From Acanthococcus lagerstroemiae (Eukaryota; Arthropoda; Insecta; Hemiptera; Eriococcidae): DNA of 64,000 nt. Below, one piece after another: positions 21,776 through 64,000 of the stretch (position 1 is its first letter; each line of letters begins with the position of its first letter). The stretch lies in the NCBI GenBank assembly GCA_031841125.1, contig CM063109.1, positions 6,920,321 through 6,984,320 on the forward strand, given 5' to 3'. The translations under genes were made by a program, and so were the position numbers. Below the pieces are notes generated by a model that ran no database searches, had not been told where the DNA came from, and worked only from the letters and a program-made list of their open reading frames with translations.

Positions 21776-22471
21776 GCCGTCTTCTTACTTTGCCGGATGG
21801 CCGCCTTGAGGGCTCGGCGCGCCTGCTGGTACCGCTGCGAGGCTTCACCCGTCCCTCCGTCATCTCGTCCTATCCGCTGATAGCGGCGACGGAGGCGGTT
21901 ACATTCCTTCCGCAGCTCGGCAATCTCGTCGGTCCACCAGTACACTGGGGGTCGCGCACGTGGCGGGCCGACGCGGGGCATTGCGCTATCGCAGGCCGCT
22001 GCCACCGTCCTGATGACGTCCTCGGCGGCGGCCTCGGCGCTCCTTTCTGCGGCCCCGTGCTCTCCCTTTTCCCAGGTGAGAGCCAGGAAGCTTGCCTCTA
22101 ACCGATCGGCGTCTAGCTTCCGGATTGCCCATCTTCCCGGCTTCTTCTTCGGTACAGCGACTACGGTGTGACCCCTGTCAAGCTGAAACGCGATGTAGCG
22201 GTGGTCACTCCCGGACTCCTCGTCGAGCACGGACCAGCCCTTGATCCAGCGGACCAGTCCTGCTGACGCGAAGGTCACGTCGATGACTGAGCTCCATCCC
22301 TGGTGGAACCTCGTTGGAGTGCCGCCCACATTCGTCGGAACGAGGTCTAGCCGGGCGGCAAGCTCCCCCAAGGCGTACCCTCTGCGGTCGGTCCGGCCGG
22401 AGTGCCATTCCTCTGACTTGGCATTGAAGTCTCCGGCCACAATCACCCTTGACGTCCTCCTGGCGACGCTC
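21688..22471 (-). pseudogene. Truncated AP-like endonuclease domain of the R1-clade LINE
   Basis: The frame is open from the truncation point at 22471 to a stop at 21688. It contains the endonuclease motifs VIVAGDFNAKSEEW, a middle segment (PTRFHQGWSSVIDVTFAS) and SGSDHRYIAF (the conserved SDH). The N-terminal endonuclease motifs are missing. Towards its end (VVMRRAGGRR) the frame falls out of register with the downstream reverse transcriptase, which continues as AEGRGPSVTSRMES in another frame. So a single-base-class frameshift lies near 21695-21715, in a G-rich run. Confidence 0.88.
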
Positions 22472-22485
22472 CCTTATTTATAAAT
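22472..22485. repeat. Target-site duplication, right copy (R1-type LINE)
   Basis: Exact copy of 19346-19359. Confidence 0.9.
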
Positions 22486-22770
22486 AATAATATTGTTGAC
22501 AATAAAAATGGACCCAAAGGTATGAAATGTTACCGCACGTTATAGTTCTCTTTGATTAAATGATCTGAAAGTTTAGTGATTTGCGATTTTCAGTTTTTAG
22601 TGATTTTTTTTTTTTTTTCACTGATGTTTGAATTCTTGATTCACTATTGCCTATTGAGATCATGGTTACTGATTATTGAACTAACAGAGTAAGTGATAGT
22701 GCTGATACATAGTTACCATTAATAACAGTGACAAATAACAACACTACTGAACAAAATGAAATTTTTTTGT

Positions 22771-23190
22771 TTGCACAACGCATTTAAGGAAGTGCTTCTT
22801 TAGTACTTTTCAACGCTGAATACAGTGCCGTCGGCCGTTTTTCTCTATCACGTCTAGTTTTTCTGATCAAAAACTATAAAAAATTCAACTAAATGTGTTA
22901 AAAAAGAGGTTTAGGAACTGAATGTGGTCATACTGATTCGTGTTGTTGTGTGTTGCGGTCGTGTGTAGTGGTGTGTATTCCGTCTGTTTGTTTTCTGTTA
23001 TTGTGGTCTGAAAACACTGATAATATCTATCAGTCAGTGGTACTGCTTATTCCAATGCAAAAACAAAATGGAAACGAATTTCAGTCGTTCAGAACTCCAA
23101 ATTGTGACGTGATAGAGAAAAATGGGTCGCAGTATCGTTTTCAGCGTTAAAAAGTACCTCAGAATCACCTGTCGAAATGCATTGTGCAAA
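22771..23190. mobile_element. Foldback element, about 84-bp arms
   Basis: 22771-22854 (starting 'ttgcacaacgcattt', ending 'tttttctctatcacgtc') is an imperfect inverted copy of 23106-23190 (starting 'gacgtgatagagaaaaa', ending 'gcattgtgcaaa'). The spacer is about 250 bp and has no coding potential. Class unknown. Confidence 0.65.
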
Positions 23191-23832
23191 ATAGTTGCTC
23201 AGTAGTGTAATCAACATTTAGGGGAGAGATAGATGGCGAATGAAGCTGAGCAGGAGTAAACCATTATTTCAATAACGCTCCATAATAAGAATAATCTTGA
23301 AATGATCTTAATCTAATAAGCAGTATAATTATCTAATGGATTTCACCAACATTACTGATTTTGGTATTCTAAAAGTGCCTAAACGGCAAATGCATTAAAT
23401 AAACACATTATCAATTTAGTAAAAAATTATTAATTTTTCAATTCAAATTTCAATTTGACAGATAAGAAACACTTCCAAAAAACATCAGTAGTATTTAGTT
23501 GATCATGATCAAGATGAAATAGATATTACTTAAATACATTGAGTAATAGAGTAATTAAATGAATAATTAATTTCATATATTTTTAATCAAGTGATAAGGA
23601 AATACTATCAAAAAATCCTTGACAGAAACTGAAATTGATAGCGTTGATAGTATTTTTCAACTACTATCAAACAGTTAATAGTCTTGAACTATCAATTACC
23701 AATACATACATGGCTAATTCATGATGCACGAAATTCTGTTCAGTGAATATCTGTCTTCAAGAAACAGTAAATTCAAGTATATCTACCCAGTAAGAGCCCA
23801 TGTTGTTCAGACATAATCTGAGGTATTGTGAG
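23191..23832. other. Non-coding AT-rich stretch
   Basis: Contains 'actatcaa'/'ttgatagt' motifs in both orientations around 23620-23700; similar 'ttgatagtattgatagt' lies at about 19215, on the other side of the R1 element. The LINE may have landed inside an older repeat, but I could not define ends. Confidence 0.35.
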
Positions 23833-24643
23833 CAGGACTGCTTAGCCAGTTGGAAGGGCTAAACAATTAGCTAAAGCTAACGTTTCCAAACGATTAGCTT
23901 CGGCGAACAGCTAATGGCTAACATAGTCTCATTGGCTAGCTAGCGGTTAGCTAAAAGCTAAAAACGTCAATATGGGTATCATTTTACAGGTTTTTTAAAG
24001 CTCTATTCAAATAAAATGCAAAAGCTCGGCTAATCGCATTATCAAAGGAAAATGCGTAAAATTCTTACGACTGCAAATTACGAGGAAGCTGTACTCTTTA
24101 TCAATATCAAGTATTATCAACCTTCGAATCTAATGTTCGAACTCGACCCCGAACGCTGAAGAAGTGAAGACTGAAGTTGAAGTACGGAAGAGTGAAGACA
24201 TAGTGAAATGCGTCTATAAATTGTAAGTTTGTAACTGTGACTACCGTGAGGACTGAGGCAGTAAGGGTGTGGGCACCTGAGGCTGAGGCCACTGTGGGTT
24301 ACAACTTACAACCTTACAGAGTTACGACTCAACAAGAGAAAGGATCCGATCGTTACTCTGGCAAGAGAACCCTTCCTGATCATTTCATCATATAGGTATG
24401 ACTGGCATTGGCATTGTGTTCGACAAAAGAGTTCTCTTGTTGAGGTGGCGATTGGCCCTTTCTTCTTGTTTTCTATGATTTCAAAAAAAAAACAAAAAAA
24501 AAACTGTTAGCAAATCAAATTTTAATAGCTAATGGCTAAGCTAATTGCTAACATGATTTCATTAGCCAGCTAGTGTCTAGTTCATTTTGAGTCAAAATCG
24601 ATCGACTAACGGCTAAAAACTGCGGCTTAGCTAAGCAGCCCTG
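23833..24643. mobile_element. Non-autonomous hAT-like element, 811 bp
   Basis: Left end CAGGACTGCTTAGCC and right end GCTTAGCTAAGCAGCCCTG are inverted. Flanking 'attgtgag' (23825-23832) and 'actgtaag' (24644-24651) look like a diverged 8-bp duplication (6/8, both changes transitions). Both subterminal regions are packed with GCTAA/TTAGC motifs, as in hAT elements. No transposase frame, so movement would need an enzyme supplied from elsewhere. Confidence 0.72.
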
Positions 24644-39362: not shown

Positions 39363-40773
39363 GAGATACCAAGCGAATGGAAACTTGCAGATATAATTAT
39401 AATATTCAAAAAAGGAAATGAACACAAGATAGAAAACTATCGCCCCATAACTTTAGGGCCAACCCTTTCAAAAATATTTTCGAGACTAATACAAAAACGT
39501 ATCCAAGCAATTTTAAATATTCAACAACCTAACGAACAAGCAGGCTTCAGAAAATCATTCTCAACTATAGATCACCTGCACAGTATAAATTAAATTATAG
39601 AAAAATGCACTGAATATCAGAAAGATCTGTTCTTAGCAACGATAGACTATACAAAAGCCTTTGACTCTATAGACCATCAATTTATGATCAAAACTTTGAA
39701 CAACCAAGGGGTCCCTAAATGTCTCATAGATATAATAGAAGAAATGTATACTGGGCTGAAAGGGAGAATAATTACGGACGTTGAAGGACAGTATTTTGAA
39801 ATTAAAAGAGGCGTAAAACAGGGAGATCCTTTATCATCAATTCTCTTCAATAGTGCGTTACAGGAAATTATTAGAAAACTAAAATGGGAAGAAAAGGGGT
39901 TGATTATAAATGGAGAAAGATTGTCAAATCTCAGATTCGCCGACGATATCATACTCTTAGCGAACACAGAAGAAGAATTAATAGAAATGATAGATGAGTT
40001 AGATGAACAGGGAAAACCTTCTAAATTAAAAATAAATGAAACTAAAACAAAAATATTAACCAATAAGGGGATGGCTGGCAATATCAAAACAAAAACCGCG
40101 AAATTCGAAATAGTGAGGGAAGCCACATATTTGGGACAACAAATATCTTTTGAAAACAAAATGAAAAAAGAAATAAATACAAGAATATCAAAAGCCTGGT
40201 CGAAGTTCTGGTCTCTAAAGAACATACTCAAGGGTCCTTTTAATAACTATCATAAAAGCCTAGTTTTTAATATGTGTGTCGTCCCTACATTGACTTATGG
40301 TTGCCAAACATGGACACTGACCGAAAACAATTTAGAAAAAATAAGAATCACACAGAATAATATGGAAAGGTCTATGTTAAACCTAAAGAAAAAAGATCGT
40401 ATCAAAATTTCTATGATAAAACAAAAATGTAAATACAATACAAACATAGTAACATACATTAGAAGGCAAAAATGGAGGTGGGCGGGGCACGTTGCACGAT
40501 TAAAAGACGATAGATGGACATACAAGACCACGATATGGCAACCCATAAACTATTGCAGAAAAATAGGAGGGCAACCAGCAAGATGGAGGGACGACATCAC
40601 ACAATTTCTAAGAAACAAAAACTACGAACAAATTGCAAACGTGAAAACCGAATGGGAAAGATTGCAGGAAACCTTTGCTCGTTACGGGCCGAGGAATAAC
40701 TATATAATAGATTTAGAACAGCTTAAGCCACAACCACTAAATATGTACATCCTCAATAAAGGTTTATTATTAT
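39363..40773 (+). mobile_element. RTE-type non-LTR retrotransposon, 5'-truncated, 1.4 kb
   Basis: Bounded by a perfect 16-bp target duplication. It starts inside the reverse transcriptase (EIPSEWKLADIIIIFKKG...) and ends in a short 3' region with AATAAA (40755) and a TTATTATTATT tail. Very short 3' UTRs ending in microsatellites are characteristic of RTE elements. Confidence 0.9.
39363..40773 (+). pseudogene. RTE reverse transcriptase with one in-frame stop
   Basis: One frame runs through the element: NYRPITLGPTLSKIFSRLI, EQAGFRKSFSTIDHL, TIDYTKAFDSIDH, IKRGVKQGDPLSSILFN, LRFADDIILLAN (catalytic Asp pair present), TYLGQQI, LTYGCQTWTL and WAGHVARLKDDRW, the usual RTE order. A TAA at 39591-39593 replaces an expected sense codon (probably CAA, a C-to-T change). 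The frame stays open past the element into flanking DNA to 40922, so about the last 50 codons of that open frame are not LINE-derived. Lacking the endonuclease and 5' end, it is immobile. Confidence 0.9.
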
Positions 40774-40789
40774 TAATGGACAGTAATGT
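40774..40789. repeat. Target-site duplication, right copy (RTE element)
   Basis: Exact copy of 39347-39362. Confidence 0.9.
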
Positions 40790-41667
40790 TGAACTTAATA
40801 CTTATTTTGAGGTTAGAAACGTGAAAAGTTTCTTTTATAAAGAACTCATTCAAATTGAACTGTATTCACAAATATCAAGGAATAAGAATAAAAACGTAAA
40901 AAAATTCTACGTCAAGTTCTAGCTTCAGTACCTATTGTCATTTGAAACTACCCTTCATTTCATCATCTTTTAAAATAGTGTACTTCAATTTTGAAATATT
41001 CAAATTGATATCCAGCTCTGCCTCAAAATTATATTTTTGGGGAGATAAATTGTGTTGTTATTAGGTCATCTGATATTAAAGAATAATTGTTTCCACCATG
41101 TATGTAAATTTGGCTCGCTTCATTTTATGGAGTTTTGGCCGCCTAAAACCAGCATTTCGACCAGTGTGTGTCATCCAGACCGTGGGCTTAAGTGAGTTGG
41201 TTCAAGTGAATTCGATAGAGAAACATTAGTATCTAGTTCTGTATCGCAGTACCCGTAAATTATTATACTAATCAAACGAATTATTTGATGCACAATTTTC
41301 CTCACATTTGGATTCCAGTCTTGGGAACGTCTATACTTTATTTTAGGTAAACGTGTGTTTAAAAATGTGCAGATTTGCGAAACTGTATCATTGTGGATCA
41401 AGATGACCATTTTGGGGAGGAAAATGGCAGAAGGAAAAGCGTATGGAAATTTTTTGCTGTCCCTACCCCACAGAGATCCCTTACTGATTTTCCCTCCTTC
41501 TCCGCGCTGATTTTCCTCTTTTTTTTTGGGGGGGGGGGGGGTTCCCCGTGGATCCGCGTCTGGTGAATGTATGCAGTACATATTACGAGTATGCAAACCT
41601 TTCGCCACTAAAATACATTCAGTTCCAAACCTTTTTTATTATAGGAACGAATTCTGCAGCAATATTG
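40790..41667. other. Non-coding stretch
   Basis: Contains a 14-base G run near 41530 with C/T-rich flanks. No exon or complete element recognised. Confidence 0.4.
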
Positions 41668-44903: not shown

Positions 44904-47400
44904 TTTTTATTTTATTATTTTATTTATTTATTTATTGAGCTTAGCCCAATTAGGAGCTAACAAGGTATTTATACTAGGTAGGCGAATTCACCTCTCACTG
45001 ACTCCTCCTTCGGGTACCCATTTCTGGGTATAGCTCTCCGTCACTTCCCTCCATTTGTCCCTTATCTCTGGCCAGGTACATCCATTGGGTCCCCGCGCCT
45101 TGCACCAGTTCGTCAGACCATCTCCTGACCGGTCTACCTCTTTCCCTCTTGCCTAGGTCTGGGATCAATGTTGTCAGGATTTTGTTCCATTTGAGTCCCG
45201 ATTCTCTTACCACATGACCAGCATACTTCCATTGTAGCCGCTTGATGACAACCCAGATGTTTTTGGCTTTAGTCCTATTAATTATTTCCTCTATTTTTAT
45301 GTGGTCTCTTAGTTTCACTTGGAGAATGCTCCGCAACATTGATTTTTGGGTCGTATTAATCTTAGTTTCCTGTTTTCTGATGGTGGCCCAGGTCTGGGCC
45401 CCGTAGGTCAGGACAGGGAGGATAGTGTTTTCCCAAATTCTTATTTTAGTGTTCAATTTCATTTTACTCTTCAGTATGTTACTCTGTGCCCAAAATGCTT
45501 TCCAGGCATTCGCTCTACGAATTTTTAGCTCTTTTTCTGTTTTATTTTTGGTTGATAGAATCTGTCCCAAATACCTGTATTCCGTAACCTCTTCTATTTT
45601 TATGTTGTCAATTTTGATTTAGTCAAGATGTTGGATGTTTATTATGATTTTTGTTTTATCCTGGTTAATTGTCAGGCGAACTTTCGCACTCTCTCTCTCC
45701 TCAGATCCTCCGCCATGATTTTAAATTCGTCCCCATTCTTTGCTATAATCGCGATATCGTCTGCAAATCTAATGTTGTTTAAATATTTATAGTGGAATAG
45801 ATTTTGGTCTCTAATTTTGATTTTGATCCCCCTTCCCTGCCAATTAATTTGCCGAAAAACATGTTCTAAGACTGCGTTGAAAATGTTTGGGGATAATGGA
45901 TCCCCTTGTTTTACTCCGCGTTCAATTCTAAACCACTCGCTTTCTTTATTCAGTCTAACTTGGGCTTTTGAGTTTTCATATAAATTTTTTAGAATTTTGA
46001 TAATCTTTTCCGGAACTCCTTGCCGAGCTAACGTGAGCCAGATTTTGTCATGAAATAGGTAGTCGAAAGCTTTATTGAAATCTATGAACATAACTGCCAA
46101 ATTTATGTTGAATTCGTTGGTCTTTTCTAGGAGTTGACTAAGTGTTTGAATATGGTCGATTGTGTTAAAGTTTTTTCGGAATCCCGCCTGCTCCACTGGC
46201 TGTTGGTCATCTAAAATCTTGTAGATACGATTTTTCAGAATTTTCATAAACCCTTTCCCAATATTCGTGGACAGACTGATCGGGCGGTAGTTATTGATCT
46301 CTGCTCGGTCTCCTTACTTGTGGAGTAAGATGATCTCTGAATGACACCATTGTCCTGGGGGAAGACCCGAGGAGAGCACCCAGTTGAATAGTTTAGCCAA
46401 TGGTTCTGCCAATATTTTCCCAAATGTTTTTAAGCTTCCGTTTTGAATCCCATCTGGCCCTGGGGCCCGATCTGGTTTTAATCTATTGAGGGTTTGTTCT
46501 ATTTCCGTGGGGCTTATGGGGGTAATATCTTCCTTGTTGTGCACATTCTCCTGCCACCTGTGTGGGTTGCCTTCTTTGGGATATAAATCCTGGTAGAAAT
46601 CCGTGGCTAGTTTGGCTATTTCTTTGTGGTCACTAATTGCTCCCCCTCGTTTGTTTTTAATTTTTGGAAGGGAGCATTTTCCTTTAGCAAGGGCCCGGTA
46701 CGTTTGTTTGGTAGACCACGTACTTTCAATGATATTTTCCGCAATTTCATGTTCGAATCGGGCTATATCCTCCCTGATTTTCTTTTTTATCAATTTCCTT
46801 AATTCTATTAGTTCGATTTGTTCTCTTACCACAAAATTAATTTTTTGTTTAATTTCCGTTCGCTTCTGAATTAGTTGTGTGGTGCTAAGGCTCAGTTTGT
46901 CGTCTGTTTTTATTTGTTTTTCGTCAATTCCTACTTTTTTGAGGACCAGATTGATTGATTTTTCTAGGTAGTTGTAGTTATCTTGAAAATTTGACGAGTC
47001 TGCTTTTTCCCATTTGATTTTGCTCAATTTTTCTCTGAGCATTTGCTCAGCTTCATGCCTCCTGTGTACTGGGATCCATAGGTTACCAGTGTTGTTCGCT
47101 CTCGAGGTGTCTACTACTTTCGGAGGGGAAAAGGCAGGCCGACTCAATTGGATTTTGCATCTTACAGGCCGATGGTCTGACGAGAACTGGAACGTGGCCA
47201 TCGCACCCACGTCCGCAACCATTTTTATATCATTAATTAACACATGATCAATCTCGTTTCTGGTACGGCCGTCAGGCGATTCCCATGTCCATGTTCTACT
47301 GAATTTTTTAGTAAAGAAGGTGTTTGCTATTTTTAGGTTATTTTTCATTGCAAATTTAGCTAGTTTGGTTCCATTTTTGTTTGTTGGTCCAGTTGCAGCT
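44904..47400 (-). mobile_element. RTE-type non-LTR retrotransposon, 5'-truncated, 2.5 kb
   Basis: Minus-strand LINE lying exactly between two copies of a roughly 345-bp repeat. The 3' UTR is about 90 bp and ends in (AAATA)n/(AATA)n, seen as TTTA repeats at 44904-44936. The 5' end is cut inside the endonuclease domain at 47400. Confidence 0.88.
44995..47400 (-). pseudogene. RTE ORF2 (endonuclease end plus reverse transcriptase) with three lesions
   Basis: Endonuclease C-terminal part: FAMKNNLKIANTFF, WTWESPDGRTRNEIDHVLI, SSDHRPV. After a basic linker come the reverse-transcriptase motifs RAPGPDGIQNGSL, NNYRPISLSTNIGKGF, EQAGFRKNFNTIDHI, MFIDFNKAFDYL, ERGVKQGDPLSPNIFN and IRFADDIAII (catalytic Asp pair present), then VLTYGAQTW and YAGHVVRESGLKW. 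Lesions: an in-frame TAA at 46314-46316 (LLHK*GDR, probably from a Lys codon), a frameshift in a GA dinucleotide run at about 45690-45702, and a TAA at 45619-45621. The rest is well preserved, so decay is moderate. Confidence 0.88.
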
Positions 47401-47748
47401 GGATGAGTGATTTTGTACTTTAAAAAAGAAAAGAGACTTAAATCCGCCAAAATTTTAAATATTGGAAAATCTATTTATCGAATCCCTTGAAATATACATG
47501 GATAGAGGAGTGATAAATGTTGTTCTGGTAACCTGATTATATTCCTCCTCCTTTTAGTGCACAGCTTAACATAAGCTATGTTTTTCATTTTATACATTTC
47601 TGCAGAAAATTTTTGTCACGTATAACTCGAAAGTTTTACTTTTTTTTTATTTTATTTTAAAAACTTGACTACGTAATTTTTTTGTTTTATGAATTAAGAA
47701 TGCAGATCAGTGCTATTCGCGTATACTCTTTTTCTATTTTCCTAACAA
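47401..47748. repeat. Long direct repeat flanking an RTE element, right copy (348 bp)
   Basis: Counterpart of 44562-44903. About the first 50 bases happen to be open in the LINE frame, which is why an apparent reading frame extends into it. The 330 bp that follow (47749-48078) show no feature. Confidence 0.85.
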
Positions 47749-52578: not shown

Positions 52579-54591
52579 ATTGTTTAGGGTAGTAAGAGGT
52601 ATCATTATACCCAATTTCAGCTTTCCCCTAATTCTTCCCTACTTTGATTATTTTTTCGTCGAATATGGCTGGACTCTAAATTATTAATTGAGTATTGTTC
52701 TTCGTGTTAACGCTAGCAGCGTGGACTGTCAAGCTAATGCAAAACTGATCGAAATAATCGAAAAAATAATCTTGATAGGCACCAATGAATTGATTGGGAG
52801 AATCGAGCCATTTTATCAGTTGAGTATAGGTTTTCAAGAAGTTCCTGTCTTATCACAGGATCCTCAAGAACGATAAAACCATTTTGACAACCCAATACTT
52901 CGACCCGCTTTTATCCTGTGACAAGTCTATTTACTCTGACAAGATGTTAACGTGTCTATCTCCTTGTATTTTCGGTAAGGGTTAAATGCCATATTATACT
53001 CGTAAGTATATGTACTAGTAAATTGTAACAAATGAATTGATAATCTGGCTTGCAATCTAAAAACTGAACTGAAATAACGAACCAAATAATAGGCACTTGT
53101 ATTTGACAACCAGATGGTGAGTTGGCAGGAATGTTCGTACACAGTTTTGTATATCTGAAATTTAAACATGATAGAATATCTGAAATTTGAAACAAAAATT
53201 TTTCCATACAAAAGGAGCAGAAAACAGTCGGTAGATATATTTAATATTGTAACAGAGAGATGTACTGAAGACTCGTCTGTGGCGTGCACAAAATTTTTGC
53301 TTAACAATAGTACTACCTTGACATTGCAAACATTCGATTCATTAGTACCATGTGTAGGTCTGTGTGTTACCTTACGTTTGTTATGATTTACTAAAAGTGA
53401 TTTGAAAGTAGAATTTTTATTCGATTATAACCATCAGCAGTTGAATGAATGTGAATCACTTCTTACATTTTAGGTATAAAAGTGCTTAGAGGACCTTATT
53501 CATACAATTGCTAGGTACCTGGAATCAAGTTTTCATATTTTATCAAGCAGAAGAAGAAGAAGAAGTATACATTGACATCCATTTCTTTTCTCTTCTATTT
53601 TTTTCGCTACCTAATATGAATCCAGGAATTACTTTTTACTGACGAAGTGCCATACAAATGCCAAGTTGAAGATATTCTTATTAAAAAGCGATAAACACGT
53701 AACTTTTGAAGGCTTACTAACTTTTCGACACTCGTTTTAAAGTTATTGTGACTCCTCCAAACCACTGACTGTTCAAGACCTGATCATGACTTTTGAAGAT
53801 TCTTCTAAAATTGTTTAAACCTCGCTAAGGCAGTGCAAGGCTTGATGAAAGACTTTTTGCGACTTTTTCAGACTTGATTAGGACTCTTTATTTTACTCAG
53901 TCTGTGACTTAGAACACTTCAAGCGTGGTAGACAATTTTAACCGTATCCATATTCTTGCGTATATCCGAGTGAGCTCTATCTGAACTGTTGTGCTCAGCC
54001 TCTCATTTGTGAATGGAATTCTTATTATCATAGAGCGGAAGCAGTGCAGCCACTTCGCCAAATAAAAACTGGAACTGTTAAACCAAGACAGGTCAACATA
54101 AAGTGACCACACGATCATAGAATAAAATGTGAGTTGGCAATTTTTCGGTTTCTGTGGAGGTCATAATGTAGGTATCTGTTTATAGATCCCATGGTTCATA
54201 TTAATCTTTTACTGTCATACCCTATCGTAGAGTTGTCATGCTTTTCCCGCACCAAAAGGAGGAAAAAACAGTAACAACAATCTGGAGAAAAGAAAATTTG
54301 AGAACGTGACTGGTGACCACAGTAACAGCTGTGGGTATGGAACGTTTTCAGCCCCTTTAACTGATTTGTTGGTTTGTTGATGAAGATGGCACACATGTTA
54401 CTGGTTGGAAAGATGAAAGAGATACTGCTTCATGACCGCCCCCCCCCCCGCCCTCATCAAAAAATTCTCCAGTATTTTCAGTGCATGAGTTATGAGCTGA
54501 TAACTAAAATATGCAACTTTTTGAGAAGTATTCACTTGTCATCTTCAATGAATCAATTCTTTCGTAGTTGAGAAAATATGGAAAATATACC
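52579..54591. other. Mostly non-coding; two weak plus-strand open frames
   Basis: 52688-52876 (NASSVDCQANAKLIEIIEK...) and 53168-53386 (SVDIFNIVTERCTEDSSVAC...) have protein-like composition but no convincing splice sites, start context or homology. An AGAAGA microsatellite lies at about 53550. The degenerate AGACTT-type repeats are at 53740-53900, and there is a 9-base C run near 54440. Confidence 0.3.
53740..53900. repeat. Degenerate AGACTT-type short repeats
   Basis: Same vocabulary as 18740-19035 ('gacttttgaagattcttctaaa', 'cagacttgattaggactc'). Confidence 0.45.
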
Positions 54592-54768
54592 TTAGGCCCC
54601 CATGAATGGATTGAATACAGTTATAACAACTCCTAAGATCGATAATAATGACCAAGATCTTACGAAACTTTCTATATTTAACGTTGCATATAACACGTCA
54701 TACCAATCATACAGGGTTCTGGTCTGATATCGGCATCTCCAGTGCATGTATTTCTTGTGAACTATTGA
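54592..54768 (-). CDS. Legumain-like gene, last exon with hydrophobic C-terminus
   Basis: Acceptor ACCTGCAG, phase 0. It encodes HWRCRYQTRTLYDWYDVLYA, which resembles the YALRHLYVLVNLC end of the legumain prodomain, then SLLSILGVVITVFNPFMGA and a stop. The final 20 residues are hydrophobic, so a membrane anchor or GPI signal is possible; typical legumains lack one. If the donor at 55064 is not used, translation would instead stop eight codons later, without this tail. Confidence 0.6.
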   Translation of the reverse strand, partial: SIVHKKYMHWRCRYQTRTLYDWYDVLYATLNIESFVRSWSLLSILGVVITVFNPFMGA

Positions 54769-57700
54769 CTGCAGGTATTTTTGGCGGCTGTCGTGATTTT
54801 GTCGTGGGAGATATTTTGAATGCACAGTTTTGCTAAAACGTCTGTGTGCATCATCAGAATAAATTTGTTCTGTTGACAAATAGTGTTGCATTAAAGATGG
54901 AATTGGCGTTAGATGACATGTTACATAAATAAGATAAAGAAGAGCGTCTTATGCGTTTTAAAGAATACTGAATATTAGACGTTTTGTCGTAAGTCTACCT
55001 CATACTTTAAGGTAGGTATAATGTTGCAGGAAGTGTATTACTCGAATAATAAATAAAAGTTAACCTCCTTTGTTCCGCAGTGGGTGACAGCTCCATTGAT
55101 AGCCTTTTTATAACAGTCGTACTGGTTCGGTGCTAAATGTAATGGAGTTTTCTCAATGTCGAATTGTGTTAACTGGGTTCCTTCAATAGATTTTGAAACG
55201 ATTTCCCCAACAGCATGTTTCAAGAATTTCTATAAAAGAATTAAGAGCGATAAATATAATTACAGTCACTGATTTCAGTAATATAAGTTTAGAATGTTGA
55301 GTTATAATTTTGTAATTCAATCCTATTATATACTCTCTCTTTTGATTTTTGTAACAAAGTCTTCGCTTACAGCTGCGAGCACATCTGCAGAAGCATGGAC
55401 GCCTCCAGACGCGAGACTTTTTTAGGGAAAGGGAAGAAAAGTGTCACCTTTCGTAGGAGAAAAAACTTTTTTATTTATTTTAGAATGATGCAGTTTTGGA
55501 AATGCAGGGAGGTTATATAAGTATTCCGTTTATCCCCTAGCAATTTTCGTTTACCAACAGTAGAGTGTTTCTCAAAGATATGAAGAAAAGATGTCGAATT
55601 TTTAAAAGTCGTACCCCTATTGGTTGCTTGCATGATCAAATTTGTGCGTTAAAAAAAAAAATAGGTAATTCAGCTGGGGCCTCAAAGACCCTTATGGAAA
55701 AATGCATGTAAAATATATGACTTTTTGTCTGAAGTATGAAAGGTCATGTAAAATATTTATGAGTTAAAATCTTGTGTAATATGTAATTCAATAAAGGAAA
55801 TATACGTCACATTGATGAGAGTCGATAAAGAAAGATAAGGCAACAAACCATTTTGTTCCCGTCATGGATTTTACAAAAATTCACATTTGTAACAAAAAAA
55901 AAATAAAATAAAATAAAATAAATAATAATAATAATAATAATAAAAATAAAATAAATGAAAAGCGAGTTTTCTTTTTTGAAATAGGTCTGGCCATCTCCTG
56001 GAAGTACCTTATTCCTTTTTAATTTCCATTCATTCTCGTCTTACCGCTTCTTTCAACTCGCCATGGATTTTTAAAAACACGTAGGGGAGACTGGGAAACA
56101 GTGTAACACCGGGAATAGTGTAACAGTGATAATTAAATTGCTTCATAACACTCTAAAATGTTGCCGTTTTGGTTACTAGATAGTAATTTTAGAAAGGAAT
56201 TTGTGGGAAAAAAATGCAATGCCTCTACTTTCATCTCCACCAAAAAAATTTTTAATTGATTTTTTGGTCTTTCCTCGCTGTAATTTTAAATATTTTTGAA
56301 TCAGAATTTTTTTCATTAAAATTTATCCTTTTGACGATCTAAATAGTATATAAAAATTACAAGAAAAGTATGCATTTTTTAATCAAGCAGTATAATGTTT
56401 TTCGACAATATGTCGTACTTGATAAAATGATGTAAGGTGGAACAGTGTAACAGTATTTTTTTCTTCCATACGTCTGTTTTCTTTCTTTCATACATCTGTG
56501 TACTGTCGTTTATGAAATGTTTACATTTTGATATGCCCGGTATTCGCTAATTTTGATAAAACTGTAGTTTGTATGTTGTATCCGAGAGATTTTTGGATCT
56601 ATTGTTCAGAAAATTCTGGATTTTTCCAAGCTAAACGACTATCCTATCAACTTTTTGGCGGTGTTATACTATACTCAGGTACTAGGGTTCAGTGTAACAA
56701 AAAATACATAGCTAAAATAATTTCTAGAGTTTTCAGATTTTAACATTTTCAGGCGGTAATAACACTAAAATGTAGCCAAAGGTTGTATCTTTCAGATAAG
56801 GTGTTAAAGTCTAAATACAAAATTAATTTGTAGTTTACAGATCAAAATGGACGAAAAGTGTTACACTGTTCCCCAGTCTCCCCTATTCGCGATGAAAATA
56901 GTGTTTCTTTCGTAATTAATATTGCTCTCTCCTGTCAGTCCCTTCTTTTTCTTTGTCCCCCCCTATTATCAAGAAACAGTATGATCATTGTTCAATAATT
57001 TTATGATTATGTTGTATGTAAATGAAAAGTATTTTTCTATGATGTCTAACTTTTTTGTGTGGGGGTGGGGGGGGGGAGAAGGGTATTTGAAGTGGGTATT
57101 CTAATGTGCTAAAAACGTATTTCAAGAAGAAAAAATCGTATTTTCACAAGATTGTAAATGTGCATTAGGGTGCCACTTATTCTATAATTTGTTTTCTTCG
57201 AATACTGGAAAGCGTACTAACGTACACTGGGATATTATTACACCAAAAACCTCAAAAGAAGTACCCAAATTTTGAACAGGAAAATTTAGAAAAAAAACTT
57301 ATAAGCGGGAATTTGGTTTAAACTGTTTGCACAGGTCTCTTATTTTTATTTAGAACAAAAACAAAAAATATGGAGAACTATCAAATTTAGGCAAAAATGT
57401 TGCTAACAGATTTGTTTCGTAATATTTTACATGAGTTGTTATTTTAAATTTTTGTGCGCCCCTTTAGAATTCACGGAAAAGGGAGTTCAAAATGGCTCTT
57501 CTCACTTGCTACGTATTAACACAATCCGTACGAAGGAAAACGTAGAATTTTGGTAATTTTTCCGAGATCACTAATTTTCGTGACCAGTCGGGGTCCAAGT
57601 TACCTAACCATTGTACTTATCCACCAGTTGAATATTTTCTTAGTCCTCTGCTCTCTTTGAATACTGCTGAAATACCAATACGTTTCTCATGTATGGTTTT

Positions 57701-60700
57701 ATTTCGGAAAATTTTAATAAGTAAATTACTGAAATATAAGCATGAAGAAAAATTGATAACGAGACTTTCAAGGCTACGAAATTCATTCTTCGTGTCTGTT
57801 TTCCCTACCTTAAAATTTAGGCCCTCGTGCGGGAGGTAAGGGTCAAAAATCCCAATAACTTCAATATGTAATCGATACTTAAGTTTCTTTGGAAAGAATT
57901 CGGTTTCAACATCGATTCTGAGCTAACTTGGAGATTGTGGCACCCCAGGATGATGAGGCTAAATAATAGGAAAGCATTTACAGATTCGAGGTACATATCG
58001 TTTCTTTGGTTTCTGGGGTCGTGGAACTGAGCTTCGATATCACTTTTCAGTTGCCATGAAGATTCAGACATTAGGGGAAGAACTCCAACTAGGAAAACAT
58101 GCACTGGTACAATTATAGGCTTCGTTTCTTATGGGTTTCGGAGCTTGTGGAATTCGACGTTGACCTTAATTTGAAGCAAAAATTTAATTTATCTTTTTAG
58201 ACCCTAATGTATGGTAGGAGTTCTGGTATTCGCTTGTTCATAAGCGTGCTAGAACCTACCAAAACAGCATAAATTCTGTGTTATTCTGCTGGGGAATAAA
58301 TCTGTTCATTGTGAAAATCCGTAAGCGTGATATTAACTTACCGATACTTGTATCGCCGTGAGCTGTTGTCTCTCAAATAGTTGCTTGTTTTACAAAAACA
58401 TATAGGTATACATATATTAGATTTTGCGAAATTCTTTGGTTCCTACCTTTTGTTTTTCAGGTACACTATCATCATTATATAATGCTTTTCTAATCGGAAT
58501 TCCTCTTTTGACAACCTTGGCAGCCTTTTGCTGTTGAGCCTGAACCTTTGAATTCCATGTAAATGCGTTATTATTTTATTTGATAAGATATTTAGTTTCT
58601 TCGTAAGAAAAGTAAAACTAATTAGTACTTACTTGCGACTCCGACTCCGATACGGTTAGCTTAGAACTTTTCGATTTTTGTGAACCATAAAAGATGCTCA
58701 GTTTTTGACTTCCGAGCTTTAAATTACCGTACATATTATGGGAACCAAGTATTGAATACAAGCTTGCAGAACTTCTACCAGCTAAATATTCATCATTTAT
58801 GGTTACATCTCCTTTATAGTTCTGTTTCAAGATCTGTAAACAATTATTATTATTATTTTTTCAATAAGTGATTGGTAAAATAAGTTTTAGTTATTGCAAG
58901 TCCTATATACAATTCTACAGTACAGCGCACGATCATCTCTGGAAGGAATCTAGATTTAACATTTCAAAAGAAATTGTATTCATTTACCGGTTCGAGGGTA
59001 TATGAATGAATGTACGATGAACAGGTGGATGTGTAAGCTCTAAGTATTGTATTAGGATGACAAAGGTATAAATCGCTGTATCTACTACCAAAAGAGCGAG
59101 CAATTACTGAAAATAGAAATCAATTTGTGATAATTTCATCTGATTGTCGATTTGTTTTCTGGCTTAAAATATTTGTCATTTATTCATCACTTACTGTTCT
59201 TGCTTTCAATCAAATCGTCAAACATTGCTCCAGGATTTTGAGTGTCCATATTGATGTATATCTGCAGTGCACAAAAATCGAACATAGTTTAATTGCGCTA
59301 TTCTTGGTCATTTTGTTTTCATGGAATAAAATCTACTTGAATAAAACCAAAGACTGGTGATATTCTCATGCAGTAAATGCATATAAAAGCGTCAGCATAC
59401 CCCGCTACCCTTCTCTTACACAAAATATGGAAATGTAAGTAGTTAGATCTTCCAACACTTGGGACCCTGTATCAGTTACACAGTTTATGAGTAATTCATA
59501 AAATTACATTTACTTTTTATTTCTCAAGTGCAGTTGCAGATTTAGCGCATAATCCGAACCAGAGAACTTCCTAAAGGGGTCCATCATCACTATAAGGTTA
59601 AAAAAAAGGTTCGACTGTTTTATTGAGACTTCTAAAACGTATGACTTTTCTGTTTCTTAATAGTTGGAACTCCAGAAGAGGACTTCTCGGACAGAGCTTT
59701 CTGATGCAAGTTAAATTCACCAATGCTTAAGTGACCAAAATGAACAAAAATGTGATTCAACAAAGATCACATTTACAAAGTTGAATTTCCGGTCGGCGAT
59801 GCTGAAGCAAGACTGGAACTAGAAGCGCTTTCAAATTTTCCATTCAGTAAGCAAATTTGAAGCGTTTAATTCCAAAACTTGCTAACCACCATTTTGCTGA
59901 TTTCCGGTAAACGGCGAAAAACGGTTGCAGTCTTTTTAGGAGTGTTAGCGAGCTAAATTATCTTCATTTCGTGAAATGGCGGCGCTGTAGATATATTACC
60001 CTTTTTTTCCTCCTGAGAATCATAGTATAAGAACAGGATGGGATGTGTTTTAGCACACTGGAGAAGCCATTTTGGCCCGGCTTTTTCAATTTTCCTGAAT
60101 GATACTGTTAATCTGTTCTTCCTCTTCCAAGATTCTTCCAGCTTTCTACGATTTCTGTGAGACACTTCCCACTTCCAACATCTTTCTAACCGGGTTAAGA
60201 GTGTTTCAGACTTGTTTATAAGGTTCCGTAAATCGGGGCGATGACTTTGCCGATTCCCATTTTTGACCATATTACTGGCCTTGTGACGAATACAAATGGA
60301 TGCTGTTAAGCACAACAGAAAATTCGAAAATGGTGGTGATATGACCGGAGGCAAAGCTTCAGCCACATACAAGATACCAGTTAAAAGAATTTATAATTAT
60401 CTTCACAAAACAGATAATGATATCCATCGGAATCCGGGAGGACGAGTAATATCAAAATAGAAAAAACATTTTCAACTGAACGATAATTTAGATTACGTAA
60501 AATTTGCTGCTATCTAGAGTTTTACCTGAGTCCATTGAATCCCGAGGAGTATTTATCTTCCCCGAAGACGTAATTTAACTTGAACTGCAAGTTTTCTTTC
60601 GTTTTTATGGCCTTTTGTAATAAATTTTGATCATTTTCATTCCTTTTCTATGCATTTCTTATGTACCGCAATGTCACTCTGTGCGCAGATAACTTTGGCC

Positions 60701-63653
60701 GATTTATCTTTAGGCCTTTATGGGAGAGGGCAGCGAAAAAGAAATTTTAATTCCCTCTAGCTAATCTTATTCCCAAAGCTTCAAACAATCCGGAACAGTT
60801 TTTCGATTTCCTGTATCTCCGATAGATCGCGCGCTACAGCTGTTTAAATTTAGAAAACTCCAACATTTTCGGCAAAGTCAACCCGGTTTACGGTTCTTCA
60901 AAGTTCGGTTAGGTTTATTATAAGTTTTACAAAAAAAACTCTTTCAGACTTGAATGGAATGCGGCAAGTCTCTGCTAAACTCCTTTAAAACTTTTTAATA
61001 TAATTGCGACATCTCCCGAGACTACGTGAGACTTTCTAAAATGCAGTCAGGCTTATTTGAAACGCAGCGAACTGCTTCTGAACTCGTTCAAAATTCAAGC
61101 AGTTTCAGTCTCCTCCAAGTAAGACTTTTTAGACCTCTTCAAACTTCTCTAAAACTTCTCAGGACTACATCATATATTTTTTAAGATTATGTAAGAAACT
61201 TCAAGCATTATTTAATACAGTTAAAGACTGACTAATTATCTTCTAGACTCGTTTAAAACTCTGTAAAGCACAAAAGAGCAATGGCCTCATTCGCACCCCT
61301 GGTTAAGACCCGATGAAATACAGTGAATATTGCCAACTCTAATCCAAACTCAATTTATGCTATTACAATCGTGTTCATTTGAAATCAGATCCGTAAATCA
61401 GATACCCAAGAAGGAAGAAGAAGGGCTTAATGAATCCTTATGATTTTTCAGAATTAGCATCACACTTTATTAGACGGTGAGTGGGTAGGGAGAAAAACTG
61501 GTTTGCTACACCCTAACAGGAAAGTCCAAGTCGCAGCCTCTGAATACCGGCACAAAACATCACTTCTCTTCCCTATTTATGGTTATGAAAAATGAGTTGA
61601 ATATCTGGTATTTATTTACTTTTCCAAGTTTCTTGTTATCTTGCAGTTCTTCTAGTGCATAGATTAAATCGTCCGCGAAAATTGCGTAATCGTTATTCAA
61701 AAAGATGTATCCGAAATTTCCAGCACCAAAGTAATACATCAACACAGTATCCTTGGGTTTACTAAAAGGAAAATAAAAACCAATCGTTATTAATTTTCAA
61801 GTGACTTAAGTAAAGTTTTCAGGTATTCATTTTTAGATTTCTGGTGTAAATATGGATATTGTTTTAAATATAATAGTTATCCTACCAGTGTAGCACTCTT
61901 CCAGATCCAGTTCCATTGACCTCGGTTGCATTTCCACTTAGTATTGCGTAAAATTGTTTAGGAGTTAGCTGAAAATTGATACATGTAATATATGTAGATA
62001 AGTACAATGAGCCATAATAAATGAAAACCTGTTAAGAAGCTGAATTTTGGCACAGAGGGTTATTCATTCTTATTGTCTGCAGTACCTTCTCCCCCTTATT
62101 TTACAGTATGAGGCACTGGCGGAATTAGGCGGTGTGCACAATGTGCACTGGCACACCTCTTCCTTCAACCGAAAGTTTATTTTATTCACTTGTGTTCATG
62201 TAGTTACTTTATCAATACATTACATTTAAAAAAAATGTTCTTTAGTAATTATAGACATCATTTAGTACCTATACCGTACAACGGGGTTACTTTGTGACTG
62301 GCGGGTAACTTTGTGAAAAAGCTGCCGCGCAGTCCTTACAACGGGTTAGCCAGCGAATAGGAATGACTAACACGCTATACCTCGGTTACCGATTGTCCCT
62401 ACAGAGAGCGTGTTAGTCATTCCTATTCGCTGGCTAACCCGTTGTAAGGACTGCGCGGCAGCTTTGTCACAAAGTTACCCGCCAGTCACAAAGTAACCCC
62501 GTTGTACGGTACCTACATCTCTACTTATATATTTAACGTGATCTTTTTATTTTTTCGCTCTATTCTTTAATTAAAAATTATATTTCGCATTACTTCGAGT
62601 ATTTATACTATTACTTTCTTATTTTCATCTTCATAAAATTTGCCTGACACAGAGTGAAGTATCATTTATAGGGGGGAGGGGAGGGAGTGGTAAACATTGT
62701 AAATCTTACAAATTTGAAAAAATAGGTATCATAACATGTTTGAAAAGTGGCACGCTTGATCACAGGCACGGTCTGGTGATTAAATTCTTGAGATGCAAAA
62801 CGTATAAAGTATTCGGTCAATAAATTTAAAAAAATGTTCAGTGGTGTTGTGGATTGCGGCAAAAGTACCCACTAAGCCATAATAAGTTGAAAAGCTCGGG
62901 ATGCATTTGCATCTCCGCACGCCCAGCCCAGGCCGTGCATGCTTGATCAAAACGTCTGGTTCCCCCTGTGGTATGAGGATGAGTTTTGTAAGAATATTCA
63001 CTAAAAAGTTTGAGTAAACGTATCCCATATTGGAAGTCCACTAATTCAAAATCTACTTGATAATAGGTGCAAACAAATAGATCTCTGATAAGGTTGTTAT
63101 AAAATTTAGAATGACGTCAGATAAATTTTCATAGCCCAATGAAGACAAAATTCTGCAGCTTCAGCATTGTACTGCAAACTATATCGCGTTAAAATTGTTA
63201 TTTGCCCTACAATTTTAGCATGATTAGCATTACCACAACTGATGGAGCTAAAATGTAAAATAAAGATCGAAATTCGTGAATAACAAAAAATCGAAAAATT
63301 ACTTTTTACTTAGGTTTAAGCAAGTTTTGTGGCAACAGTATAACTTACCTTAGCACTGCTATCGTAGTCGACTGTTACATTAGCGTAAACATTTGGTTCG
63401 CCTTCCGGACTACCCGTTATGCTCGAGCTTACAATGCCAGGGAATTGATTTCTAATGTCAGTTTGAAAGATGAATTTTAGCTTGTTTTCTAGAGAGTATC
63501 CAATATTTTCTTTCAAGAAAGAAAGTCAAGTTGATGGATTTGTTCGTATACTCACAGCGGATGAAAAGCAACTGAATCTGGACTGATCAAGATGATATTT
63601 TTCGCTGGAATGCCTTGTTGTAGAAGTAAATTATAATGCTTATACACCATGGC
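54592..63653 (-). CDS. Legumain-like (peptidase C13) protein lacking both catalytic residues; eleven exons, 5' end outside the window
   Basis: Exons, 5' to 3' on the minus strand: 63653-63556, 63451-63349, 61968-61886, 61761-61620, 59261-59195, 59106-58988, 58833-58633, 58539-58447, 58383-58342, 55229-55065 and 54768-54592. All are joined by GT-AG sites in compatible phases, totalling 1290 bp (429 codons plus stop). The order matches legumain: HYNLLLQQGIPAKNIILI (compare NGIPDENIIVMMYDD), NQFPGIVSS, LTPKQFYAILSGN...GSGRVLH (TPENFL.VL.G...GSGKVL), the His-region, the Cys-region, SILGSHNMYGNLKL (SHVMQYGN) and a C-terminal prodomain with QYDCYKKAINGAVTHC. The catalytic His of DHG is Gly (YFGAGNFG) and the catalytic Cys of EACESGSMF is lost (INMDTQNPGAMF). 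NAT, NGT and NVT sites suit a secretory protein. The last exon ends in a hydrophobic tail. Weakest joins are exons 8, 9 and 11. Legumains cut after Asn in lysosomes; this one should be inactive as a protease. Confidence 0.82.
55065..55229 (-). CDS. Legumain-like gene, prodomain exon
   Basis: Acceptor CTTTTATAG, phase 0 in and out. 55 codons: KFLKHAVGEIVSKSIEG fits the helix before the prodomain (compare LIEKSVRKIV), and QYDCYKKAINGAVTHC fits the conserved CY...HC motif of legumain C-termini. It is separated from the upstream exons by a 3.1 kb intron that contains a MITE. Confidence 0.75.
55898..55955. repeat. AAATA/AAT microsatellite
   Basis: A-rich run, then (AAAAT)n, then (AAT)n, in an intron of the legumain-like gene. 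Confidence 0.85.
56084..56883. mobile_element. TA-flanked TIR element (MITE), 800 bp
   Basis: Ends GGGGAGACTGGGAAACAGTG... and its inverted copy at about 56858-56883 match over some 26 bases, with TA on both outer sides (56082-56083, 56884-56885), as after Tc1/mariner-type insertion. GTGTAACAGT motifs recur inside. A 71-codon open frame at 56528-56743 is not recognised. It lies in the 3.1 kb intron of the legumain-like gene. Confidence 0.7.
58342..58539 (-). CDS. Legumain-like gene, two short linker exons (58539-58447, 58383-58342)
   Basis: The first encodes KRGIPIRKALYNDDSVPEKQ, similar to the DVPL.I.KRKL...ND linker of legumains. The second encodes QLFERQQLTAIQVS, the start of the prodomain helix. 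Both are phase 0. The acceptors (AAGGTTCAG and AAAACAAG) are weaker than elsewhere, so boundaries may shift by a few codons. Confidence 0.6.
58633..58833 (-). CDS. Legumain-like gene, exon 7
   Basis: Acceptor TTTACAG, donor GTAAGT, phase 0 in and out, 67 codons. ILKQNYKGDVT corresponds to TL.KQY.LVK, and SILGSHNMYGNLKLGSQKLS to the SHVMQYGN...S motif. The Ser/Lys-rich tail (KSKSSKLTVSESESQ) is longer than in typical legumains. Confidence 0.78.
59195..59261 (-). CDS. Legumain-like gene, exon 5: site of the lost catalytic Cys
   Basis: Acceptor CTGCAG, donor GTAAGT. 22 codons IYINMDTQNPGAMFDDLIES(KN) align with FYIEACESGSMFEGLLPKN of active legumains. The position of the nucleophile Cys is Asp, with extra residues inserted, while the flanking GxMF and the leucine-rich end are kept. 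Confidence 0.8.
59953..60372 (-). CDS. Unassigned 139-codon open frame in a repeat-like region
   Basis: Lies in the 2.4 kb intron (59262-61619) of the legumain-like gene. Basic and Trp-containing sequence (ERCWKWEVSHRNRRKLEESW...). It overlaps the TTGGATGCTGTTAAGCA motif (about 60296) shared with 14437, 14705 and 17577, so it is probably part of an interspersed repeat. No domain recognised. Confidence 0.2.
   Translation of the reverse strand: MYVAEALPPVISPPFSNFLLCLTASICIRHKASNMVKNGNRQSHRPDLRNLINKSETLLTRLERCWKWEVSHRNRRKLEESWKRKNRLTVSFRKIEKAGPKWLLQCAKTHPILFLYYDSQEEKKGNISTAPPFHEMKII
60930..61270. repeat. Degenerate AGACTT-type short repeats
   Basis: The most extended patch of this family: 'ctctttcagacttgaatgga', 'gtgagactttctaaaatgc', 'agactttttagacctcttc' and 'ctagactcgtttaaaactc'. 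Intronic. Confidence 0.5.
61620..61761 (-). CDS. Legumain-like gene, exon 4: site of the lost catalytic His
   Basis: Acceptor TTTTCCTTTTAG, donor GTAAAT. DTVLMYYFGAGNFGYIF, then FADDLIYALEELQDNKK, aligns with HVFIYFTDHGSTGILVF and the YAKDL...L..MY..KKY stretch. The His of the DHG motif is replaced (AGN), while the fold-determining hydrophobic strands are conserved. Confidence 0.82.
62274..62509. mobile_element. Nearly perfect hairpin element, about 103-bp arms
   Basis: The left arm (ccgtacaacggggttacttt...ctaacacgct) is reverse-complementary to the right arm with only one or two mismatches; the loop is about 30 bp. It is flanked by 'tacctata' (62266-62273) and 'tacctaca' (62510-62517), 7/8 identical, which looks like an 8-bp target duplication. 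It lies in the 1.38 kb intron (61969-63348) of the legumain-like gene. No coding content. Transcripts would fold into a long double-stranded stem. Confidence 0.8.
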
Positions 63654-64000
63654 CTTTGTAAAAGAAAAATAAATATTTAGTTCATAATTATTGAACGTGA
63701 AAACGACCGCTTTTGGCTTTTTGTTGATCTGTTTATTCTCAGTCTACCTGTCTATTCTCAAACTGTCTGTATGCAGCGGTGGCAGCCTTTGTATAGCGTG
63801 TGTAGCAAGTTGCTACACCCCAAAACAGCTTGCTACACCTCGGAAAAACGTTTGCTACACTTCAAAAATGTTTGCTACACCTCGAAAAATCTCCCTTTCT
63901 TCAGAACTTTTTAATCTAAAATCATCTTCATCTAAGAGGATAGAGTACAGACAGGTTTTGCAGTTGTAGTAAAATAAGTAGAGAGTTTTTGCATTGAAGA
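63654..64000. other. Intronic/upstream sequence of the legumain-like gene
   Basis: No exon carrying the expected N-terminal legumain motifs (GSxGWxNYRHQAD) is visible here, so the 5' exons lie beyond the window. It contains the minisatellite at 63810-63890. Confidence 0.5.
63810..63890. repeat. Minisatellite, four copies of a 20-22 bp unit (TTGCTACACCTCGAAAAA)
   Basis: 'ttgctacac' recurs at about 63810, 63830, 63852 and 63872 with related spacers. The plus-strand 92-codon open frame here is a by-product of the repeat. Confidence 0.8.

Follow-up and report, generated by a model that had tools for sequence, protein, structure and literature searches.

Analysis of a stretch of 64,000 nucleotides (nt) from Acanthococcus lagerstroemiae (C4:6920321-6984320 of the 658-Mb genome, in the following called the window) revealed a multi-exon gene on the minus strand that belongs to the legumain lineage of peptidase family C13 and has lost both catalytic residues together with the residues of the S1 pocket. 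Judged from its sequence, this legumain-like gene (hereafter the window gene) probably encodes a secreted, non-catalytic protein that is built on a prolegumain scaffold, works by binding and belongs to an insect pseudo-legumain family. Four other loci of the same genome with which it is compared are referred to as A, B, C1-type and C8.

Gene structure and family membership

Inside the window the gene consists of eleven exons that splice in phase on the minus strand from 63653 to 54762 and give 408 codons and a stop (Table 1), with GT-AG introns and a frame that is open throughout. An earlier note on this DNA had described an in-phase, legumain-like gene of eleven exons and 429 codons between 54592 and 63653; the legumain-like gene and its eleven exons hold within the window, while the gene is not complete there and the full model has twelve exons and 454 amino acids (aa). 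The first coding exon is located 1.3 kb past the window end, at 65396-65259 in extended numbering (L007 1396-1259), and has an ATG and 46 codons; it ends in the matching phase, its start is hydrophobic and resembles a signal peptide, its sequence TWAVLICG aligns with the first strand of legumain and its addition raises the Peptidase_C13 score from 94.8 to 109.8 bits. At the other end translation stops at the TAG in 54764-54762, in a frame that encodes the cysteines of the prodomain and can be aligned to the final exon of B. The 3' end at 54592 was rejected, being in a different frame with an open stretch of 118 aa and no Pfam match; of 300 dinucleotide-shuffled versions of the region, 63 contained an open stretch at least as long. 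Membrane attachment, which had been suggested apparently from the hydrophobic end of that frame, loses its support with it. An acceptor at 63509 for the second in-window exon was also rejected, since the frame breaks, and 63451 was adopted. No further convincing legumain-like exons were found in the window.

The in-window part alone matches the Pfam families Peptidase_C13 (E 7.9e-27) and Legum_prodom (E 2.2e-6), and the C13 profile search proposed earlier as a check placed the 454-aa model far above the curated cut-off of 22.8 bits (E 2.2e-31), making the window gene a member of family C13. The Legum_prodom match (27.8 bits, cut-off 25.2) reaches position 97 of 97 and shows four conserved cysteines, and solved legumains match the window gene over almost its full length with E-values down to 3e-25. 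PIGK (GPI8, of the GPI-transamidase) shares family C13 with the window gene, but the latter has a legumain prodomain and scores lower against PIGK, with 35-37 bits for solved PIGK chains compared to up to 92 bits for solved legumains; the prodomain and the gene structure shared with C8 both assign it to the legumain lineage. No match was found in NCBIfam. When compared with legumain (asparaginyl endopeptidase; PF01650 and PF20985; EC 3.4.22.34 for the active enzyme), the window gene has the same domain order with both Pfam matches above their cut-offs, exon phases in common with C8 and the four prodomain cysteines, whereas the catalytic His and Cys, Ser216, Asp231 and the NYRH motif are lacking and the identity is 22-24% to both the vertebrate legumains and the canonical legumain of the same genome.

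State of the active site

The active site was analysed in an alignment of 16 rows, consisting of the window gene, C1-type, C8, the proteins P0121-P0125 and P0128 from profile searches (see below) and seven vertebrate proteins; P0126 and P0127 are N-terminally incomplete and were left out. The catalytic residues His148 and Cys189 follow an excerpt of PMC9579014 and the S1-pocket residues Arg44, His45, Ser216 and Asp231 an excerpt of PMC4357240. In a gapless register the window gene has GAG instead of DHG (His to Ala) and DTQNPGAMF instead of EACESGSMF (Cys to Gln), with the length unchanged; the earlier note had given these segments as AGN and NMDTQNPGAMF, thereby recognising both losses but in another register. 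His148, Cys189, Ser216 and Asp231 are absent from all six pseudo-legumain rows (window gene, C1-type, P0121-P0124) and present in the remaining ten. At Arg44, His45, Ser216 and Asp231 the window gene has G, M, L and T, where a one-residue insertion makes the register near the first two uncertain, and in that same uncertain register the Asn of the NYRH motif, which we take to be catalytic, is lost as well. The C1-type rows keep His45 and two out of five also keep the NYRH Asn. Both the catalytic pair and the S1 pocket that mark an active legumain are missing from the window gene, and alternative exons restoring His and Cys, named in the earlier note as speaking against a dead enzyme, were not present: a scan of both strands from 54001 to 64000 of the window showed no exon with a DHG-like or EAC-like motif.

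A family of pseudo-legumains in the same genome

A C13 family search of the genome gave six matches, three at C8:17.36 Mb, two at C1:2.04 Mb and one at C1:18.62 Mb. C8 is a canonical-looking legumain with SNGYENYRHQ, SDHG and EACNAG, of which 415 aa were assembled; the last exon is missing from the model and was not recognised within 20 kb downstream. The gene at C1:18.62 Mb is PIGK-like with NYRHVANVLS, presumably the PIGK motif, while the C1-type gene at C1:2.04 Mb is intact with 11 exons and 457 aa and has Leu for the catalytic His and Thr for the Cys. A genome search with the 454-aa window protein, with 12 of its 16 matches inside the window gene itself, located one further locus (best E 0.021) at C1:3.03-3.05 Mb, where A and B are arranged in tandem. 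Both are intact, each with 11 exons and 446 aa, and both lack the catalytic His (Phe and Leu, respectively) and Cys (Asn in both). Asn also occupies this position in a variant legumain reported from Schistosoma (Cys197 to Asn), a C13 protein that differs from the canonical enzyme by the loss of the nucleophile alone. A search with B gave no new locus. The genome searches scored the best candidates only, so that the number of pseudo-legumains is at least four. Weak matches with stop codons inside were seen to the window protein at C9:2553889-2554155 (E 1.33, the stretch there being unconvincing) and to the C1-type protein at C1:27715783-27715908 (E 0.44).

The exon phases agree across all five legumain-like genes (window gene, A, B, C8, C1-type) and several exon lengths are shared (Table 1); therefore the duplication copied a spliced gene with its introns and no retrocopy was involved. 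In a tree of 19 proteins the window gene forms a clade with A and B (support 100/100), which joins the C1-type clade at 92/97, under the mark for a sure branch. An alternative tree with the window gene, A and B placed with C8 was not rejected (p-AU 0.355), and therefore a single loss of the active site cannot be distinguished from two independent losses.

Constraint on the tandem pair

A and B are 61% identical, with a dN of 0.252 and a dS of 1.033 and thus a ratio of non-synonymous to synonymous changes (dN/dS) of 0.244 (95% range 0.177-0.325 in a codon bootstrap, with all 1000 replicates below 1). Codons 1-270 taken alone give 0.227 and those after them 0.273, and two other estimators gave a dN/dS of 0.27/1.00 and 0.26/0.92. 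Purifying selection acts on these two genes, and since both have Asn at the nucleophile position, the loss probably predates their split and the constraint would be one on dead enzymes.

The conserved residues of A and B are not evenly distributed around the old site. The least conserved 21 residues (5 of 21 kept) run from the old His position onward and the residues directly preceding them rank with the best conserved (19 of 21), while 15-residue windows centred on His, Cys, Asp231 and Asn show 8, 6, 9 and 9 conserved residues, values that are ordinary or mildly low (windows with no higher score number 176, 80, 228 and 228 of 432). This pattern hints that the function does not reside in the old cleft.

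Relatives in other species

A profile of C1-type and the window gene gave eight proteins at E ≤0.001 among 7997 candidates scored. P0121-P0124 align with 98-100% of the length of C1-type at 39-48% identity and lack the catalytic His and Cys; P0125-P0128 are legumain-like and keep DHG and EAC. The sole named relative among the pseudo rows is P0123 from the mealybug Planococcus citri (Sternorrhyncha, Coccoidea). P0121, P0122 and P0124 originate from contigs of 1522-1657 bases encoding 423-486 aa, which fits transcripts, since the contigs are short and coding without introns. A second profile, made from C8, C1-type, the window gene and a hamster chain, was uninformative on insects as its best 120 of 2186 proteins were nearly all vertebrate.

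The active site is dead alike in the window gene and in C1-type with its kin, and the two groups form one clade in the best tree, at the support given above. The C1-type group differs in keeping His45 and a Glu or Asp two positions before the Cys position, in its shorter exon 3 and in the loss of prodomain cysteines that the window gene keeps. The AlphaFold model of P0123 (mean pLDDT 71, pTM 0.75) has its best matches among the prolegumain structures of plants and mammals (Foldseek E 6.7e-24), with a root mean square deviation (rmsd) of 3.5-4.1 Å to peptidase-domain targets among the 50 matches listed, and the peptidase fold seems to be kept in this group.

A probable scaffold for binding and its alternatives

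The events leading to the window gene would have started with the duplication of a spliced legumain gene, founding the insect pseudo-legumain family, followed by the loss of the catalytic His, the Cys and the S1 specificity and then by fast divergence, with the frame and much of the sequence retained. The product would be secreted and consist of a peptidase-like domain, a linker and a prodomain, and surfaces of this scaffold away from the old cleft might bind a protein partner. Since the S1 pocket is lost and the stretch behind the old His is weakly conserved, the function is presumably no longer in the old cleft, which makes peptide binding there, as put forward in the earlier note, less likely. 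The most plausible partners are a protease inhibitor, for which the protein would be a decoy, a protease such as the active legumain, or a target that the protein encounters once it is secreted.

Several observations weigh against such a protein. The prodomain score of the window gene barely exceeds its cut-off, and prodomain matches in the other genes are either below it (C1-type, 20.0 bits) or absent (A, B and the incomplete C8 model); because A and B have no match, C1-type falls below the cut-off and the window gene lies barely above it, the prodomain may be eroded in the pseudo-legumain family. Exons 9 and 10 are without homology support and the branch of the window gene is long, with 4.07 changes per site in the tree made before A and B were added. 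Its synonymous sites are saturated compared to A (pS 0.77) and near saturation compared to B (dS 1.96, dN 0.78), so that the dN/dS of the window gene itself is not computable. In the P0123 model 88 of 446 residues have a pLDDT under 50 and the rmsd to full-length targets is ~10-12 Å, and the window gene, A, B and C1-type are all known from genomic sequence alone.

If the window gene were a recently silenced or decaying pseudogene, the active site would have been lost unmaintained and the frame would be open by chance. This would agree with its very long branch, the two mobile-element-like stretches in its introns, its being known from genomic sequence only and the homologue search with the in-window part alone, which gave nothing at E ≤0.001 among 3317 candidates. 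Nevertheless, all 12 exons are open and the splice sites are intact even though the nearest kin are 31% identical or less, and in simulations of neutral drift to 80% protein identity the frame stayed free of stops in only 6 of 2000 runs from C8 and 2 of 2000 from the window gene, and at ≤60% identity in none of 2000 from either start gene (only substitutions were simulated; indels would make intact frames rarer still). Since the equally dead sister pair A and B has a dN/dS of 0.24 (0.18-0.33) and the family of at least four dead copies is intact, decay is very unlikely, and the view of the earlier note that the gene is not dying is upheld, with the proviso that the ratio was measured on the sister pair. 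Still less credible is that the cleft was rebuilt for a different kind of catalysis. The former Cys position is polar in all eight pseudo members (Q, N, N, T, S, S, S, S), and such a Gln, Asn, Ser or Thr could in principle act there, but His has disappeared from the general-base position in every one of them, being replaced by A, L, L, Y, L and F in the six pseudo rows and by F and L in A and B, and these two genes share few residues in the stretch behind this position.

Among proteins that work by binding, which is the interpretation preferred here, function without catalysis has precedents in another family of cysteine proteases. According to an excerpt of PMC7054455 an inactive cathepsin B paralogue of Trichobilharzia, TrCB1.6, is expressed beside active enzymes and binds cystatin, and a role as a decoy has been proposed for it; its nucleophile is changed from Cys to Gly and mutating the Gly back to Cys restored endopeptidase activity, whereas in the window gene the whole site is gone and not the nucleophile alone. 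By analogy the window protein could be a decoy for cystatin-like inhibitors, the insect's own or those of its food plant, shielding active cysteine proteases, and the canonical-looking legumain C8 would be there to be protected. As a specific role this is possible though somewhat unlikely: mycocypins, the one class of legumain inhibitors considered, bind the active site in a substrate-like manner as well as exosites (PMC9579014, excerpt), while in the window gene the active-site and S1 residues are missing and A and B differ most in the region from the old His position onward. Binding of inhibitors through exosites is possible. The protein might alternatively be secreted from salivary glands or gut and bind plant or symbiont targets, a role we consider doubtful on its own. 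The signal-peptide-like start and the fast divergence of the window gene fit this, as does the mealybug origin of the sole named pseudo-row relative, and aphid cathepsin B proteins of the oral secretion still raised aphid fecundity as catalytically inactive mutants (PMC12266115, excerpt); on the other hand, an arms race has left no trace in the overall constraint on A and B, the dN/dS being a whole-gene and not a per-site measure. By analogy an inhibitor decoy and a feeding-related secreted protein appear about equally likely and a regulator of active legumain somewhat less so.

Significance of the family

Dead cysteine-protease paralogues are as a kind already known (PMC7054455, excerpt), and no report of a pseudo-legumain, or of an insect family of them, was found among the titles and abstract openings listed, which covered subscription journals thinly. 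Tentatively, and with a single named relative to judge by, the sequences suggest that Sternorrhyncha could have evolved a multi-gene pseudo-legumain family of secreted binders in which catalysis and substrate recognition were discarded. Mealybugs would share its more conserved branch, whereas the offshoot formed by the window gene, A and B would have diverged quickly and taken on a function particular to its lineage, for instance as inhibitor decoy or secreted effector. At least four intact pseudo-legumains, two of them under measured purifying selection, occur beside one canonical-looking legumain and form a natural set for asking what the legumain scaffold does after catalysis is gone. There is also a warning for annotation, as P0123 ('legumain-like isoform X2') and the jgi protein P0122 ('legumain') are both without the catalytic His and Cys. 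In a survey from 2012, 19 legumains were counted in a spider mite, and the pea aphid came highest of the remaining species with three (PMC3407033, excerpt). Some of the legumains counted as digestive in sap-sucking insects may be dead.

Exons and other elements of the window

Table 1. Exons of the window gene located in the window, numbered from the first coding exon outside it, and repeat elements in its introns.
Feature	Position	Strand	Evidence and remarks
Exon 2 (first in window), 98 nt	63556..63653	-	acceptor ..acaaag, donor gtgagt; 98 nt in all five legumain-like genes assembled
Exon 3, 103 nt	63349..63451	-	also 103 nt in A and B; 82 nt in C8 and C1-type
Exon 4	61886..61968	-	canonical legumain C8 matches at 48% over 27 aa
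Exon 5, former catalytic-His loop YYFGAGNFG, His148 to Ala	61620..61761	-	alignment
Exon 6, former nucleophile segment DTQNPGAMF, Cys189 to Gln	59195..59261	-	alignment
Exon 7, 119 nt, former S1-pocket segment, Asp231 lost	58988..59106	-	119 nt in all five genes
Exon 8	58633..58833	-	splicing in phase
Exon 9, linker	58447..58545	-	splice sites and phase intact; no convincing paralogue match
Exon 10, linker, 42 nt	58342..58383	-	weakest exon; A and B models have one exon fewer
Exon 11, prodomain, first two of four Cys	55065..55229	-	Pfam, alignment
Exon 12, prodomain end and stop TAG	54762..54869	-	last exon of paralogue B aligns, 46% over 24 aa
Inverted repeat, putative hairpin-like mobile element	62272..62511	.	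intron between exons 3 and 4; 105-nt arms, 99% complementary, 30 nt apart
Putative non-autonomous DNA transposon	56082..56885	.	intron between exons 10 and 11; 804 bp; 28-nt terminal inverted repeats, 96% complementary

The terminal inverted repeats of the putative transposon begin TAGGGGAGACTGGG. Elsewhere in the window, a GC-rich non-long-terminal-repeat retrotransposon is found at 19631-22473 on the minus strand, with an open reading frame for a reverse transcriptase of 717 aa (RVT_1 E 2.2e-37) adjoined by one for an endonuclease (Exo_endo_phos_2 E 2.4e-18); the 4-kb block 20001-24000 has 52% GC compared to 34-39% in the other blocks. Retrotransposon remnants are located at 39594-40922 on the plus strand (RVT_1 E 5.1e-27) and at 44995-47474 on the minus strand, the latter with an endonuclease match of 19.9 bits, below the cut-off of 27.4, beside frames that, judged by eye, resemble reverse transcriptase.

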